Origin: Pseudomonadota bacterium
Lineage (GTDB): Bacteria > Desulfobacterota > Desulfobulbia > Desulfobulbales > Desulfocapsaceae
NCBI GenBank assembly: GCA_018821985.1
Contig: JAHJKP010000048.1
Span: 1-64,000 of the forward strand
Direction of reading: 5' to 3'
DNA length: 64,000 bases
Made by a program: the position numbers and the translations under genes. The notes under the pieces are model-generated. The model was given only the letters and a program-made list of their open reading frames with translations. It was not told where the DNA came from and did not search any database. Shown piece by piece: positions 16,978-23,231 of this stretch. Position 1 is the stretch's first letter. The number at the start of each line of letters is the position of its first letter.

Positions 16978-18855
16978 TCAGAATTCAATCCTAAAACTGC
17001 ACACTCCTTCTTCCACCCGGCTCTGTACCTTGTACCCGGAATGGTTAAAGATCGCCTGCATCCGCTTGTTATCACGCAGGACCTCGGCCGTGAATCCACT
17101 GATACCACTGGCCTTGGCAATGGTTATAAGATGGCGAAAAAGAAAACTGCCCAAGCCCTTATTCTGCCACTCATCCCGGATCACAAAAGCAACCTCGGCC
17201 CTGTTGGTGTGTTCATCCAGATAATAACGACCGACAGCAATGATATCATCACCATAAGCCTCAGGCAGGGTTCCGACAATGGCCACATCCTTGCGGTGAT
17301 CGACGTAAACAAAATTCTGGATCTGTTTCTGGCCGAATCGTTGATTATGACTCATAAACCGATAATAAAGGGTTTCCTTGGATAGGTCATAGAGCAGATC
17401 CCGCATCAACGGTTCATCGGTAGGATGAATAGGCCGGAAATTGACCTGGGTACCATTATCGAGCAGGAAGCTGGTCTTCATCACATCCTGGGAAGCGATC
17501 ACAAACCGCCCCTCCACATCGGCAAATTCCCGGCGGATATACCTGGCCTCAATGGCCTGTTTCAGGAGCTGTTCCCGATGATCAGGATGAGCAATGGAAA
17601 CGAGTGCCAGGGTCCGATCCTGGACGGATTTGCCATGCAGATAGGCCACCCCGTATTCAGTGACCACATAGTGAACAGTGCCCCGACTGACCACCACCCC
17701 GGAGCCGCTGCTCAAAGCGGCCACGATGCGTGATTTGCCGTCTCTGGTGGTGGCCGGCATGACGATCACAGCCCTGCCGCCCGGCGATCTGGCAGCTCCG
17801 CGGTTGAAGTCCACCTGGCCGCCGATCCCGGAATAGAAACTCCCCTCTTCGGAATCTGAACAGATCTGGCCGGTGAGATCAATCTCAAGTGCCATGTTGA
17901 TGGAGACCATCCGGTTCTGCCTGCCGATCACCGTGGAGTCATTGACATACTCCGTGGGCCGGAAGGAAAACAAGGGGTTATCATTGACATAATCGTAAAG
18001 TCTTTTGGTTCCCATGCAGAAGCTGGTGACAATCTTGCCCCGATCCGTGGATTTACGAGCCCCGCTCACCGCCCCCGACTCAATCAGCTCAATGATATCA
18101 TCGGTGATCAGTTCCGTGTGGATGCCTAGATCATGCTTGTCGTGCAGGGCATGCATCACCGCCTGGGGAACCCGGCCTACCCCGGGAACACGGCCCAGTC
18201 CGAACTCCACCGTGGCACCGCTCGGGACCAGGGCGGCCACCAGTTCGGCGATCCTGGCGCTCACCGCATGCACCGGTTGCGATACTCGCTCCAGCAGGGG
18301 CACGTCTGCCGGTACCAGGATATCAAGGTCAGCCACGTCAATCAGGCTGTCGCCGCGGGTCCATGGCATCTGCGGATTGACCTGGGCAATGACCAGCGAG
18401 GCGTTCTCGGCAGCAGCCCTGACAATATCAACGGAGACCCCGAGACTCATCTTGCCTCGGGCATCAGGCGGGGTCACCTGGATCAGGGCCACATCAAGGG
18501 GCAGCTGTCCGGAATTAAAGAGCCCCGGGATGTCCGACATGAGAATGGGGGTATAGTCGCCCCTGCCCTCCTGAAACAGCTCGCGGACATTATGACCGAT
18601 GAAAAAGGAATTGACCTTGAAGCAGTCGGCGTATTTCCGGTCGGCATAGGGGGCATCACCCTTGGTCAGAAGCTCGATGATCTCCACATCGGCAAGCGTT
18701 CCCGCCATGTCGGTCATGGCCTGCACCAGCACGGTGGGTTCACCACAACCAGTACCAAGGAAGACCCGGTGTCCGGAGCGGACAGAGGCCATGGCCTTCT
18801 TCGGGGTCATGATCATATCCTTGTAGGTCTCTTTCCAGTTCACATCATATTCCAT
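16978..18855 (-). CDS. Acetyl-CoA hydrolase/transferase fused to a GNAT acetyltransferase
   Basis: This 625-residue protein has two parts. Residues 1 to about 460 form an acetyl-CoA hydrolase/CoA-transferase (class I, 4-hydroxybutyrate/butyryl-CoA:acetate transferase-like), with an acidic SDSEEGSFYSGIGGQVDF stretch where the catalytic glutamate would be expected. Residues about 470-625 form a GNAT domain with the acetyl-CoA binding loop QNKGLG in VIRDEWQNKGLGSFLF. The ATG at 18855 has AAGGAG 7 bp upstream; a longer frame to 18882 lacks one. The first domain should move CoA between acyl groups; the GNAT domain may acetylate lysines on a partner enzyme or on itself (inference). It lies 99 bp downstream of the ADP-forming acetyl-CoA synthetase. 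Confidence 0.88.
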   Translation of the reverse strand: MEYDVNWKETYKDMIMTPKKAMASVRSGHRVFLGTGCGEPTVLVQAMTDMAGTLADVEIIELLTKGDAPYADRKYADCFKVNSFFIGHNVRELFQEGRGDYTPILMSDIPGLFNSGQLPLDVALIQVTPPDARGKMSLGVSVDIVRAAAENASLVIAQVNPQMPWTRGDSLIDVADLDILVPADVPLLERVSQPVHAVSARIAELVAALVPSGATVEFGLGRVPGVGRVPQAVMHALHDKHDLGIHTELITDDIIELIESGAVSGARKSTDRGKIVTSFCMGTKRLYDYVNDNPLFSFRPTEYVNDSTVIGRQNRMVSINMALEIDLTGQICSDSEEGSFYSGIGGQVDFNRGAARSPGGRAVIVMPATTRDGKSRIVAALSSGSGVVVSRGTVHYVVTEYGVAYLHGKSVQDRTLALVSIAHPDHREQLLKQAIEARYIRREFADVEGRFVIASQDVMKTSFLLDNGTQVNFRPIHPTDEPLMRDLLYDLSKETLYYRFMSHNQRFGQKQIQNFVYVDHRKDVAIVGTLPEAYGDDIIAVGRYYLDEHTNRAEVAFVIRDEWQNKGLGSFLFRHLITIAKASGISGFTAEVLRDNKRMQAIFNHSGYKVQSRVEEGVCSFRIEF

Positions 18856-18954
18856 GGTTTTCTCCTTAGGTGCCGTTACCAAAAGAGCAAGGGCTTTTTC
18901 CAGATCTTTTGGTTTACGCCACCTTATGCCGCTGACGACATTGTATCGTTATAC

Positions 18955-21075
18955 TTATGCTTTGACGACGGCCTCCGCGGGCAAGGCAGCCAGGGTCATG
19001 CGCGCATCCGCCACCACCGGCTCGGAACCAACTTCTCCGACAATAAACGGATTGATGTCAAGTTCCAGGATCTGCGGGAAATCGGTGGTCAACTGGCTGA
19101 TCCGCTGCAGACCGGAAGCAATGGCCGTGATATCAACCCCCTTCTGCCCGCGCTTGCCTTCAAGCATGGCATAGGAACGGGTAGATTTCAGCATCTGGAT
19201 GGCCTCCTCTTCAGTGATCGGGGCCAGATGGAAGGTCACATCCTTCATCACCTCAACAAAGATGCCACCCAGACCAAACATGAGCATGGGCCCGAACTGG
19301 GGATCACGAGTCATGCCGATGATAATCTCCAATCCTTTCTTAGCCATCTGTTCCACATAGATGCCTTCAATCAAGGCATCCGGCATCCGCTTGCGGATCT
19401 TCAGCATCATCAGGTCATAGGCATCGCTGACTTCCTCACCATTCGCCCTGTTGAGTTGCACCCCCCCGATATCGCTTTTATGGATAATATGGGGAGAAAC
19501 GATCTTCATGGCCACGGGATAGCCGACACGCTCGGCTATCTCCACGGCTTCCTCAGCACTGCCGGCCAGAGCCCCTTCCTGCACCCGGAAGCCGTAGGCC
19601 CCGAGGATATCTTTTCCTTTCTCCTCGCCCAGCTGAAGCATACCGGTGCGCTGACGGCGACTGATGATGCGTTCCACACGCCTCCTGTTCACCCGGAACC
19701 TGGTCACCAGACGCGGCGGCCGCTGTTTCCAGGCCGCATATTCCACCATCCCTTTCAGGGCCGAAACGGCCCGTTCCGGCGATTCATAATCAGGAAGTCC
19801 AGCAGCTGCAAGTTCCTTACGCCCCGGCATCACGTCCCGCCCCCCCATGAACGAGGCCACCACCGGTTTGGAACCGTCAAGGGCCCGGGCAATGGCAATG
19901 GCCGTCTCTGCCGGTCTTGTCATGGCCTGGGGGGTGAGGATTACCAGGATGGCATCAACAGACGGATCGGTCTGAGCCGCCTCAATGGCCGCCACATAGC
20001 GCTCGGGATCGGCATCACCCAGCACGTCAATCGGGTTGCCGACGCTTGCCGCCTGCGGCAGTTGTGCCCGAAGCGCGGTGGCCGTATTGCGGTCAAGTTC
20101 CGCCACCTGCATCCCTGCCTTTTCCACCGCGTCGGCAGCCATGGTTCCAGGGCCGCCGGCATTAGTAACAATGAGAATCCGGTTTCCCTTGGGCAGCGGC
20201 TGCATGGACAGGGCGGTGGCATAATCAAAGAGGGCATCAAAGGTGTCGGCCCGTACCACACCTGAGCGTTTGAAGGCCGCACCATAGGCGGTATCCACCC
20301 CGGCCAGCACTCCGGTATGCGACGCAGCCGCCTTCAGACCGGCGGCCGTAGTTCCTGATTTAAGGATAATCACCGGTTTGCGGGTAGCGGCCTCTTCCGC
20401 CGCCTTGACAAAATTATTGCCGGTGGCAATATCCTCGAGATAGCCGACAATAACCTTGGTCTGCTCATCCTGGGCAAGATATGAGAGCAGGTCAACCTCG
20501 GAGATATCCGCTTTGTTGCCGATGCTGATCAGCTTGGCCAGTCCCAGATGTCTGCCCACAGCCAGATCCAGCATGGCGGTACACAGAGCCCCTGATTGGG
20601 AAAAAATAGAGATCCCGCCGGGGTCCGGCATCCGGCCTGCAAAAGAGGCATTGAGCCTGGCCTCCGTATTGATCAGGCCCAGACAGTTTGGCCCCAAGAC
20701 CCGGACATTGTGACGTTGACAGAGTGCAGCCATCTTCTTTTCCCGGGCCAGCCCTTCCGGTCCGGTCTCCCGAAAGCCGGCAGTAATGACAATAATCGCC
20801 TTGGTTTTAGCCTGGATACTGTCTTCCACCGCCGCTATAACCTTGGCCTGCGGCACCACTATCACGGTCAGGTCAATCTCTTTACCCCAGGCCGCAAGGG
20901 AGGGGTAACAAGGCAGATCAAAGAGAGTATCAACTGCCGGATTCACCGGGACAATAACCCCGGGAAATCCATCCTGCACCAGATTAGCCAGGATATCATG
21001 ACCAACCTTGCCCGGACTTCTAGAGGCACCGATCACCGCCACCGACTTAGGGCGAAAAAGGACATCAAGACTCAT
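18955..21075 (-). CDS. ADP-forming acetyl-CoA synthetase, fused alpha-beta subunits
   Basis: A 706-residue acetate-CoA ligase (ADP-forming) that makes acetate and ATP from acetyl-CoA, or the reverse. The CoA-binding domain begins PKSVAVIGASRSPGKVG; the ligase domain contains SHTG (about residue 255), the expected phospho-histidine site. The C-terminal half is an ATP-grasp domain (VGYPVAMKIVSPHIIHKSDIGGV region). Alpha and beta parts are joined, as in many bacteria. AGGAG precedes the ATG. This gene, the CoA-transferase/GNAT fusion and the AcuB-like gene upstream share a strand with gaps of about 100 bp. The Pat/PatZ protein acetyltransferases use a related but inactive synthetase domain; here no GNAT domain is attached. 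Confidence 0.92.
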   Translation of the reverse strand: MSLDVLFRPKSVAVIGASRSPGKVGHDILANLVQDGFPGVIVPVNPAVDTLFDLPCYPSLAAWGKEIDLTVIVVPQAKVIAAVEDSIQAKTKAIIVITAGFRETGPEGLAREKKMAALCQRHNVRVLGPNCLGLINTEARLNASFAGRMPDPGGISIFSQSGALCTAMLDLAVGRHLGLAKLISIGNKADISEVDLLSYLAQDEQTKVIVGYLEDIATGNNFVKAAEEAATRKPVIILKSGTTAAGLKAAASHTGVLAGVDTAYGAAFKRSGVVRADTFDALFDYATALSMQPLPKGNRILIVTNAGGPGTMAADAVEKAGMQVAELDRNTATALRAQLPQAASVGNPIDVLGDADPERYVAAIEAAQTDPSVDAILVILTPQAMTRPAETAIAIARALDGSKPVVASFMGGRDVMPGRKELAAAGLPDYESPERAVSALKGMVEYAAWKQRPPRLVTRFRVNRRRVERIISRRQRTGMLQLGEEKGKDILGAYGFRVQEGALAGSAEEAVEIAERVGYPVAMKIVSPHIIHKSDIGGVQLNRANGEEVSDAYDLMMLKIRKRMPDALIEGIYVEQMAKKGLEIIIGMTRDPQFGPMLMFGLGGIFVEVMKDVTFHLAPITEEEAIQMLKSTRSYAMLEGKRGQKGVDITAIASGLQRISQLTTDFPQILELDINPFIVGEVGSEPVVADARMTLAALPAEAVVKA

Positions 21076-21172
21076 GTCAGCTCCTAAAATAAATTAACAT
21101 TGAAAATATTACGTAAAAAAAGTTCTATCAGAGAAAAATCCCCAATAGCACGTCTGTAAGATATCCATCTCA

Positions 21173-21808
21173 TCACAGGGCCGGATGGATTCCGGCCTCA
21201 CGCAACAGGGTCACGACTGAGGCGATCTTGTAGGTGTTTAGACGGAGATAGATCCGATTGCCATTCTCGATATCGTGAATGCGCAACAGACGGGTAAAAG
21301 GAATTTCATGATGTTCAAGCAGGGTGACGATTCTGGTCATCAGGCCGATCTGGCCGTCGTCTTCAATACCGAGGAGTACCGACCCCTTTTCCCCCACACC
21401 GAAAAGCTCCTTATAGGCGGTAAGCAGATCCCTGCTGGAAAAAATGCCAACCAGCTGGCCATCTTCAAGGACTGGCAGCGCCCCCACACCCTCGCGATCA
21501 AAAAGGAGCAGGGCATCATCAAGGGTCGATTCGGGGGTCAGGCCAATACACTCGGTACTCATGACATCCACCACCGTCGTTTTCTCCACCCGTGCATAGG
21601 CCTGCAGGCGTTCACTTTCAGAAAGCACCGAAGAAGGATAGGCCGAACGCAGATCGCGGTCAGTAATCATCCCCACCAATTGTCCTTGTCTATCCACCAC
21701 CGGCAGATGGCGAAAATGATTTTCATTCAATAAACGCCTGGCCTCAGGAAGCGTCATCTCAGGCGTTGCCGTCAACGGTTCTCGGATCATATATCTGGAA
21801 ATATACAT
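21173..21808 (-). CDS. acuB: AcuB-like CBS-CBS-ACT domain protein
   Basis: A protein of 211 residues with two CBS domains (about 8-60 and 75-130) and a C-terminal ACT domain (about 140-211), the AcuB arrangement. CBS pairs usually bind adenine nucleotides and ACT domains bind small ligands such as amino acids, so it is likely an allosteric sensor. The gene lies 97 bp upstream of the acetyl-CoA synthetase and 66 bp downstream of the AcuC-like deacetylase. In Bacillus, acuB sits between acuA and acuC, which control acetyl-CoA synthetase by acetylation. The symbol rests on architecture and neighbours. The ribosome site is weak. Confidence 0.75.
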   Translation of the reverse strand: MYISRYMIREPLTATPEMTLPEARRLLNENHFRHLPVVDRQGQLVGMITDRDLRSAYPSSVLSESERLQAYARVEKTTVVDVMSTECIGLTPESTLDDALLLFDREGVGALPVLEDGQLVGIFSSRDLLTAYKELFGVGEKGSVLLGIEDDGQIGLMTRIVTLLEHHEIPFTRLLRIHDIENGNRIYLRLNTYKIASVVTLLREAGIHPAL

Positions 21809-21874
21809 GGCATCTATTCAGAAAAAGTTAGAGTTCAATAATTTCATCGGAATGAAATCTTATTCAGTGAAAAA

Positions 21875-22831
21875 TCACCGGGCCAATAATCCCTGCACAT
21901 ACGCCTCAACCGACTCTCCCAGCACTGTCAGTTCGTAGCCTCCCTCGAGGATGGAAAGCAATCTGCCACAGCAGTAAAGATTACTCCAGTTGCGGACACT
22001 CTCTCCTATCTTTTCAAATATCTCTGTCGAATAGTGCAGCCCCGACATTTCATCAGCTCGATGGCCGTCAAATCCGGCCGCCACAATCATGGCATCCGGC
22101 TGCCACTGAGCAATCTTTTCTTCCACCGCAGGGAGCAGCGCCAGAATCTGGGCATCGCCTGCACCGGGAGAGAGCGGCAGGTTGAGAATGGAACCGCGAC
22201 CAGCGCCAAAACCTTTTTCATCCGCATAGCCGGTTCCAGGATAGCTGAAGCTGGGGTGCTCATGGATGCTGACATACAAGGAATCCACATCCTGCTCAAA
22301 GGCCGACTGAATCCCGTTGCCATGATGGGCATCAAAATCAAAGACCACTATGCGTTTGCGGCCATAGTGCTGCTGCCAGTAGCGAGCCGCCACCACACAG
22401 TTGTTGAAAAAACAGAAACCAAAGGGTCTGATCCGTTCGGCATGATGCCCTGGCGGACGTACCAGACAAAAACCTTGTTGCGTCTGACCTTCCTCCAGCA
22501 GATCGATGGCGATAAGCCCGGCACCAGCAGCCAGAGATGCCACCTCATAGGAATCATAGCCGATCTGGTTATCAGGATGATCAATAAAGGTCTTACCCGA
22601 AAGAACCGCCTCTTCAAAACGAAAGAGCCACGCCTCTTCATGAACCGCCATCAGCCATTGCCTCTCTGCCGGACGGCTCGCATGCAGCTCCAGAAGAGAA
22701 AAGCAGTCGCTCTGTTCCAGGGTGGAAAGAATGGCCTGAAGTCGGGCCGGAATTTCGGGATGATCACCACCCGTATCGTGCTCCAGAAAACGGGAATCGG
22801 TGATGAGTGTGAGCAATGAGGGGAGATGCAT
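21875..22831 (-). CDS. acuC: AcuC-like histone deacetylase-family protein
   Basis: A 318-residue zinc-dependent deacetylase fold (arginase/deacetylase superfamily). Active-site features are present: RPPGHHAE with H129/H130, zinc ligands D167 and H169 in FDFDAHHGNG, and D255 in AAGFDGH. Family members remove acetyl groups from lysine or polyamines; AcuC of Bacillus deacetylates acetyl-CoA synthetase. The ATG at 22831 is preceded by AGG 6 bp upstream; the longer frame from 22861 has no ribosome site. It leads the run AcuC, AcuB, acetyl-CoA synthetase, CoA-transferase/GNAT, so an acetylation-control role is a fair inference. Confidence 0.85.
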   Translation of the reverse strand: MHLPSLLTLITDSRFLEHDTGGDHPEIPARLQAILSTLEQSDCFSLLELHASRPAERQWLMAVHEEAWLFRFEEAVLSGKTFIDHPDNQIGYDSYEVASLAAGAGLIAIDLLEEGQTQQGFCLVRPPGHHAERIRPFGFCFFNNCVVAARYWQQHYGRKRIVVFDFDAHHGNGIQSAFEQDVDSLYVSIHEHPSFSYPGTGYADEKGFGAGRGSILNLPLSPGAGDAQILALLPAVEEKIAQWQPDAMIVAAGFDGHRADEMSGLHYSTEIFEKIGESVRNWSNLYCCGRLLSILEGGYELTVLGESVEAYVQGLLAR

Positions 22832-22973
22832 AATTACCTGAGAGGAAAGATCATGAAACAAACGGATGTTGAATAATTCCTTTCTTTTGGTGTATCCTGC
22901 TGTTTAAACGATGTCAAATGGTATTCATTCTCTTCCCGGACACCTTCAAAATGCAGACAGGAGCACATTCCTC

Positions 22974-23231
22974 ATGATCCATATTACCCTCTATCGTTCA
23001 GCCCTTTGACCACGGTGCCATATGGCCCGTAAAACTCTGTATGAGTTAATTGACAACAAGCCTGAAATAGACGTTGAAGAAGTAGATATTATCACCAACC
23101 CCGTGCGGGTGTGGAAGGATGGTATTCGCTTTATTCCTACCCTGAAGAGTGGTGACAAGACCCTGAGCGGCGTCTTTCTCAGCCGCATGGAGATTCAGAA
23201 CTTTTTAAAAGAGGCAGGTCTGCAGCTATAG
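22974..23231 (+). CDS. Thioredoxin/glutaredoxin-fold selenoprotein with a U-x-x-C active site (in-frame TGA)
   Basis: Read from the ATG at 22974, which has AGGAG 10 bp upstream, the frame is open for 85 codons except for one TGA at 23007-23009. Decoded as selenocysteine, residues 9-15 become S-A-L-U-P-R-C, with Sec12 and Cys15 in the place of the CxxC pair of a thioredoxin fold. A first beta strand (IHITLYRS) precedes the motif, a helix follows, and IPTL near residue 55 supplies the usual cis-proline. Starting at 23022 instead would remove the first strand and the active site. A hairpin at 23033-23047 could act as the SECIS. The gene is divergent from the deacetylase. Function is presumably thiol-disulfide or peroxide chemistry; the substrate is unknown. 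Confidence 0.8.
23033..23047 (+). promoter_or_regulatory. Candidate bacterial SECIS hairpin
   Basis: AACTC (23033-23037) pairs perfectly with GAGTT (23043-23047) around the loop TGTAT. The loop contains a G-U pair of bases about 30 nt after the TGA, inside the range usual for bacterial SECIS elements. A second candidate, nearer the TGA, is the stem at 23012-23030 around ATAT with a bulged T. Confidence 0.5.

Follow-up and report, generated by a model that had tools for sequence, protein, structure and literature searches.

An in-frame UGA almost certainly encodes selenocysteine in a small thioredoxin-fold protein of the Desulfobulbia

Background

In the window analysed here, a stretch of 64,000 nucleotides, the reading frame of a small redoxin is interrupted by a TGA that falls on the first position of a CxxC-type active-site motif. 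The locus raises the question of whether this TGA is a stop codon, an error in the assembly, or a translated codon and, in the last case, whether it is read as selenocysteine (Sec) or as Cys. Sec-containing thioredoxins, glutaredoxins, and thioredoxin/glutaredoxin-like proteins have already been listed (PMC13188914, PMC2398784, PMC1794560). Comparison of homologues shows that UGA 23007 is translated, the amino acid at its place alternating with Cys, and that a SECIS-type hairpin lies on its 3' side; we regard it as almost certain that the codon encodes Sec and that the locus is a genuine selenoprotein gene.

Results and discussion

Reading frame and codon distribution

The redoxin frame (Table 1) ends with a TAG (23229-23231), encodes 85 amino acids, and contains a single in-frame TGA. 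When this codon is read as Sec, the product is MIHITLYRSALUPRCHMARKTLYELIDNKPEIDVEEVDIITNPVRVWKDGIRFIPTLKSGDKTLSGVFLSRMEIQNFLKEAGLQL. The original prediction had extended the frame upstream to an ATG with an AGGAG site, interrupted only by TGA 23007, and the sequence is exactly as described; within the genus, most homologues likewise have AGGAG ahead of their ATG. It had further held that a conventional start at 23022 would cost the protein its first β-strand and its active site, which is borne out by the mechanical open reading frame call: this starts at that ATG and loses both. The resulting 69-aa fragment has no significant Pfam match.

Table 1 Features of the redoxin locus and its neighbours (positions in the window)
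Feature	Position	Strand	Evidence
CBS gene (AcuB-like, two CBS domains), adjoining the deacetylase gene	21173..21808	-	Pfam PF00571, synteny
Histone-deacetylase-family gene (AcuC-like), divergent neighbour	21875..22861	-	Pfam PF00850, synteny
Shine-Dalgarno-like AGGAG	22959..22963	+	Sequence; 10 nt 5' of ATG
Predicted 85-aa thioredoxin-fold selenoprotein gene, UPRC active site	22974..23231	+	130 distinct homologous loci, AlphaFold, Foldseek
In-frame UGA, almost certainly read as Sec (residue 12, opening the CxxC-type motif)	23007..23009	+	Codon distribution in 130 loci
Conventional (truncated) gene call, 69 aa	23022..23231	+	Mechanical ORF call
SECIS-like hairpin, stem AACUC/GAGUU, loop UGUAU (G at loop position 2)	23033..23047	+	Fixed-offset analysis, covariation; loop start 28 nt past UGA
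Pro55 codon, cis-proline position	23136..23138	+	Invariant in 91-member alignment; directly 5' of strand 56-59 in the model

Eleven relatives came from a scan of GTDB contigs, their record titles naming Desulfobulbaceae, Desulfocapsaceae, and similar MAGs; the equivalent codon is TGA in nine of them and TGC in two. The gene is present in 158 of the 258 genomes searched in the class Desulfobulbia. The alignment comprised 141 loci, of which 130 are distinct once the 11 loci of the GTDB scan, which repeat the same organisms, are left out. In these 130 loci, the codon at the Sec position is TGA in 62, TGC in 39, and TGT in 29, and no other codon occurs (71, 41, and 29 with the repeats included). 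Homologues with Cys in place of the TGA codon, which the original prediction had proposed as a check, thus make up 68 of the 130 loci, two of them within the same genus. Two findings had been named in advance as evidence against Sec, namely another stop codon at this place in close relatives and a lack of CxxC or UxxC homologues: TAA and TAG were looked for and occur in none of the distinct loci, and the homologues number 130. Every one of 91 aligned members has U/C12, P13, R14, C15, L22, and P55.

With a true stop at TGA 23007, the gene would be decayed or would encode a 69-aa protein that starts at ATG 23022. This would agree with the start of the mechanical call; however, this short form would be without strand 1 and the nucleophile, and residues 1-11 and the frame 5' of the TGA are conserved in homologues. 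Because of this conservation, and because only TGA, TGC, and TGT are found at the codon, the frame is not a chance one, and the codon distribution largely refutes the true stop, to which we attach a negligible probability. That a TGC was misread as TGA in sequencing or assembly might be suspected from a close relative that has TGC, but TGA occurs in 62 distinct loci from independent assemblies and several families, and it is tied to a hairpin that the Cys forms mostly lack; an error of this kind is barely conceivable. A further 379 genomes from the phylum gave no match at 1e-10 outside the class among the candidates scored (at most 13 per genome), and the UPRC subfamily therefore looks restricted to the class of the window within the genomes searched.

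A SECIS-like hairpin at two placements

Bacterial SECIS (bSECIS) elements are expected to have a loop of 3-9 nt with a G in its first two positions, a stem of 4-16 bp, a distance of 16-37 nt from the UGA, and a minimum free energy of -7.5 kcal/mol or lower (PMC13188914). The original prediction had proposed a search for such an element 3' of the UGA, and a SECIS-like hairpin with covariation is found there at 28 nt (Table 1). Its 5-nt loop, 5-bp stem, and distance lie within these ranges, and its pair probabilities are 0.85-0.996. The hairpin alone is weak (-4.5 kcal/mol), and the energy limit is reached only by the whole stretch 3' of the UGA, second hairpin included (-14.8 kcal/mol). The hairpin nearest the UGA on its 3' side (23012-23030) was considered as a SECIS element and rejected: there is no G in its loop (AUAU), its distance from the UGA is too short, and beyond the genus it is not conserved in this form.

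In a fixed-offset analysis, the Sec loci share one hairpin type, with a 5-nt loop and G at loop position 2, at either of two placements. The +28 placement is found in 32 Sec loci from three genera of the window's family, and the +21 placement in the majority of the 30 remaining ones. No clear hairpin exists at +28 or +21 in L127, L161, and L130, and these three Sec loci were left out of the pairing and shuffle count for +21. The +28 class is 100% paired, with nine cells showing changes on both sides, and the +21 class is 93.6% paired, with 19 such cells; in either class, none of 500 shuffles scored as high, and slid versions of the hairpin had far lower pairing and covariation than the real placements. 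The energies of the best hairpins differ between Sec and Cys forms (Mann-Whitney p = 5.6e-14, a value that overstates independence, the sequences being related). In the +28 class, the loop G is a third codon position, and this G (Leu codon CTG) is present in all 30 distinct Sec sequences, as opposed to 33 of 66 distinct Cys sequences. The +28 hairpin is absent from the Cys homologues except for two TGC forms of the same genus, in which it is unchanged. These two forms are probably intermediates, and the hairpin that they keep probably reflects a recent change from Sec to Cys.

History of Sec in the subfamily

The protein tree is weakly resolved; it gathers every +28 Sec locus on one side, where just two Cys forms are nested, and places the +21 loci on the opposite side, intermixed with Cys forms. 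Over this weakly resolved tree, 13 changes are required in total. Judging from these sequences, the two placements could represent two independent gains of Sec; alternatively, there could have been a single gain followed by relocation of the hairpin and many losses. Within a single class, the subfamily comes in many natural Sec and Cys versions and with two SECIS placements, and some pairs are very close (91% identity inside one genus). This makes it a good system for testing Sec/Cys replacement and the origin or decay of SECIS elements.

Sec machinery

The original prediction had advised looking for selA, selB, selC, and selD in the genome. Three of these (selA, selB, and selD) are present, and selD itself has a Sec UGA at its UxxK place and a hairpin of its own; as to selC, the canonical gene was not found and only an atypical UCA tRNA was seen. 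A genome without selB and selC, which had been named as evidence against Sec, is not what was found, selB being there. A single match in the draft exceeds the tRNA-Sec gathering score (58.7 bits), and it is atypical: its fold is a cloverleaf of the 7/5 type, with U73 and an encoded CCA, and it is not called by ARAGORN. Canonical tRNA-Sec was not found among the part of the first-look candidates that was scored, and direct reading of about one third of the genome revealed neither this tRNA nor glyQ. Among 16 congeners, the canonical tRNA-Sec gene was detected in 13 (68-71 bits), and it adjoins glyQ in those inspected. The canonical selC may be missing from the draft, or it may be among the candidates left unscored.

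Some relatives with the TGA form have no detectable selA. Neither TIGR00474 nor a search with the SelA of the genome studied here detected it in four genomes of one or two contigs each (G115, G119, G128, and G129) and in two drafts (G171 and G180), all six of which have selB and canonical tRNA-Sec. SepSecS was considered as an explanation and was not found in the selA-less relatives, and weak SelA-like matches in two of them resemble, as judged by eye, other PLP enzymes; a divergent selA is possible. Desulfosediminicola ganghwensis IMCC35004 has been credited with 40 or more selenoproteins (PMC12013277). In many drafts, and in contig C12 of the genome studied here, the 5' side of selA is often no more than about 300-650 bases from a contig end, which suggests that the sequence upstream of selA breaks assemblies.

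A second UCA tRNA and the possibility of Cys

The atypical tRNA of the genome (C6:147365-147463; L013:1502-1602) belongs to a second kind of opal (UCA) tRNA, which is encoded also in L217, L218, L219, and L220. It has a Cys-type U73, a 6-bp D-stem, a long variable arm, and a 7/5 acceptor arm, and it sits in the gap between hdrA-like and mvhD/vhuD-like genes. Five genomes of the genus have it, four of them together with canonical tRNA-Sec. Such a tRNA might read the UGA wholly or partly as Cys, as proposed for the selC*-type tRNA-Cys of other Deltaproteobacteria, for which U73 and an opal anticodon have likewise been reported (PMC7609411); the presence of the second UCA tRNA-like gene in a genome where canonical tRNA-Sec was not found would suit this reading. 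However, seven congeners with the TGA form have canonical tRNA-Sec and, at the threshold used, no second UCA tRNA, and the TGA forms are accompanied by covarying SECIS-like hairpins that plain suppression would not need. Moreover, the described selC* tRNAs are 8/4 (PMC7609411) and the present one is 7/5, and no second selB above the cut-off was found in the genome. Decoding as Cys is consequently very unlikely, and Sec is retained as the preferred reading. Dual decoding within the genus, in which SelB and the hairpin would direct Sec and the U73 UCA tRNA of the hdrA-mvhD gap would let the same mRNA yield a Cys form that spares selenium, is conceivable and improbable. The numbers being small, it may be recorded that both congeneric TGC forms (L035 in G167 and L039 in G178) carry the second UCA tRNA, and that, among genomes with the TGA form in this genus, it occurs in only three.

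Fold and presumed function

The AlphaFold model built with the 91-member alignment (pLDDT 94.5, pTM 0.85) has the order E-H-E-H-E-E-H, with residues 12-15 at the start of helix 1. Foldseek matches the model to thioredoxins with probability 1.00 and a TM of about 0.8 by query length. The best match of the sequence profile is the MJ0307 thioredoxin (1fo5, 6.5e-12), followed by 1nho and a glutaredoxin entry (7c10). The features of a thioredoxin fold, i.e., a CxxC-type motif opening helix 1 and a cis-proline before the third strand, are both seen, in agreement with the original prediction, which had placed U-P-R-C where a thioredoxin or glutaredoxin has its CxxC and had proposed the fold and the cis-proline: [U/C]-P-R-C is invariant, as is P55, and the model and the Foldseek matches support the rest.

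Because of the fold and the motif, the product is most likely a small, single-domain thiol-disulfide oxidoreductase with Sec as the nucleophile. No signal peptide is seen and the chain opens directly with strand 1; on this ground, the protein should work in the cytosol. By analogy with established bacterial Sec biology, seryl-tRNA-Sec would be converted to Sec-tRNA by SelA using selenophosphate from SelD, and SelB would bind the hairpin and deliver Sec at the UGA. Sec12 would then attack a disulfide or a similar oxidised substrate, Cys15 would resolve the selenenylsulfide, and a donor of the thioredoxin-reductase type might re-reduce the protein, while Pro55 is probably the cis-proline that shapes the substrate groove.

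Relation to known families

The 85-aa product matches thioredoxin and glutaredoxin families of Pfam, all below their cut-offs (e.g., glutaredoxin PF00462, 19.2 bits against a gathering cut-off of 22.9). None of the NCBIfam models reaches its cut-off either: the MJ0307-family thioredoxin model TIGR00411 scores 29 bits (curated cut-off 92.75), UXX-star family 3 NF047338 17.4 bits (97), and UXX-star NF041212 14.1 bits (66). Definition of the subfamily by an existing model was attempted, and none fits; PADLOC gave no match. The closest known proteins by sequence belong to the MJ0307 family (PDB 1fo5 and 1nho), with which the product shares a minimal thioredoxin fold of 85 aa and an S-x-x-CPxC opening of helix 1, whereas the solved examples of that family have only Cys. 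The UXX-star families are also small, glutaredoxin-like, and often Sec-containing, but here the motif is UxxC with an invariant second Cys.

Known UxxC proteins with Sec, including thioredoxins, glutaredoxins, and thioredoxin/glutaredoxin-like proteins (PMC13188914 Table 1; PMC2398784; PMC1794560), have in common with the present one the thioredoxin fold, the UxxC motif, Cys homologues, and a bacterial SECIS element. The UPRC subfamily differs in passing no NCBIfam or Pfam cut-off and in its seeming confinement to one class, the comparison with the listed families being one of descriptions and not of sequences. No mention of it was found in the literature covered, which includes few subscription papers. 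The UPRC selenoprotein is an apparently new, unnamed representative of the UxxC redoxins, which are themselves already known, and with it comes a well-supported subfamily of Sec and Cys versions that standard annotation cuts short.

Genomic neighbourhood

A homologue of the deacetylase gene lies upstream and divergent in at least 49 of the 130 distinct loci, including Cys forms and other families, within flanks of about 1-1.5 kb. Beyond the deacetylase/CBS pair follow CoA-ligase and then acetyl-CoA hydrolase/GNAT genes. In the window, the minus strand of 16978-22861 encodes an acetyl-CoA hydrolase with a GNAT domain, a CoA ligase with ATP-grasp, the AcuB-like CBS pair, and the AcuC-like deacetylase, a cluster resembling, by its gene content, an acetylation/deacetylation module. 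As a guess, for which the neighbourhood gives only a hint, the redoxin might act near acetyl-CoA metabolism. Downstream of the redoxin are a convergent cupin gene and a leuA-like gene.
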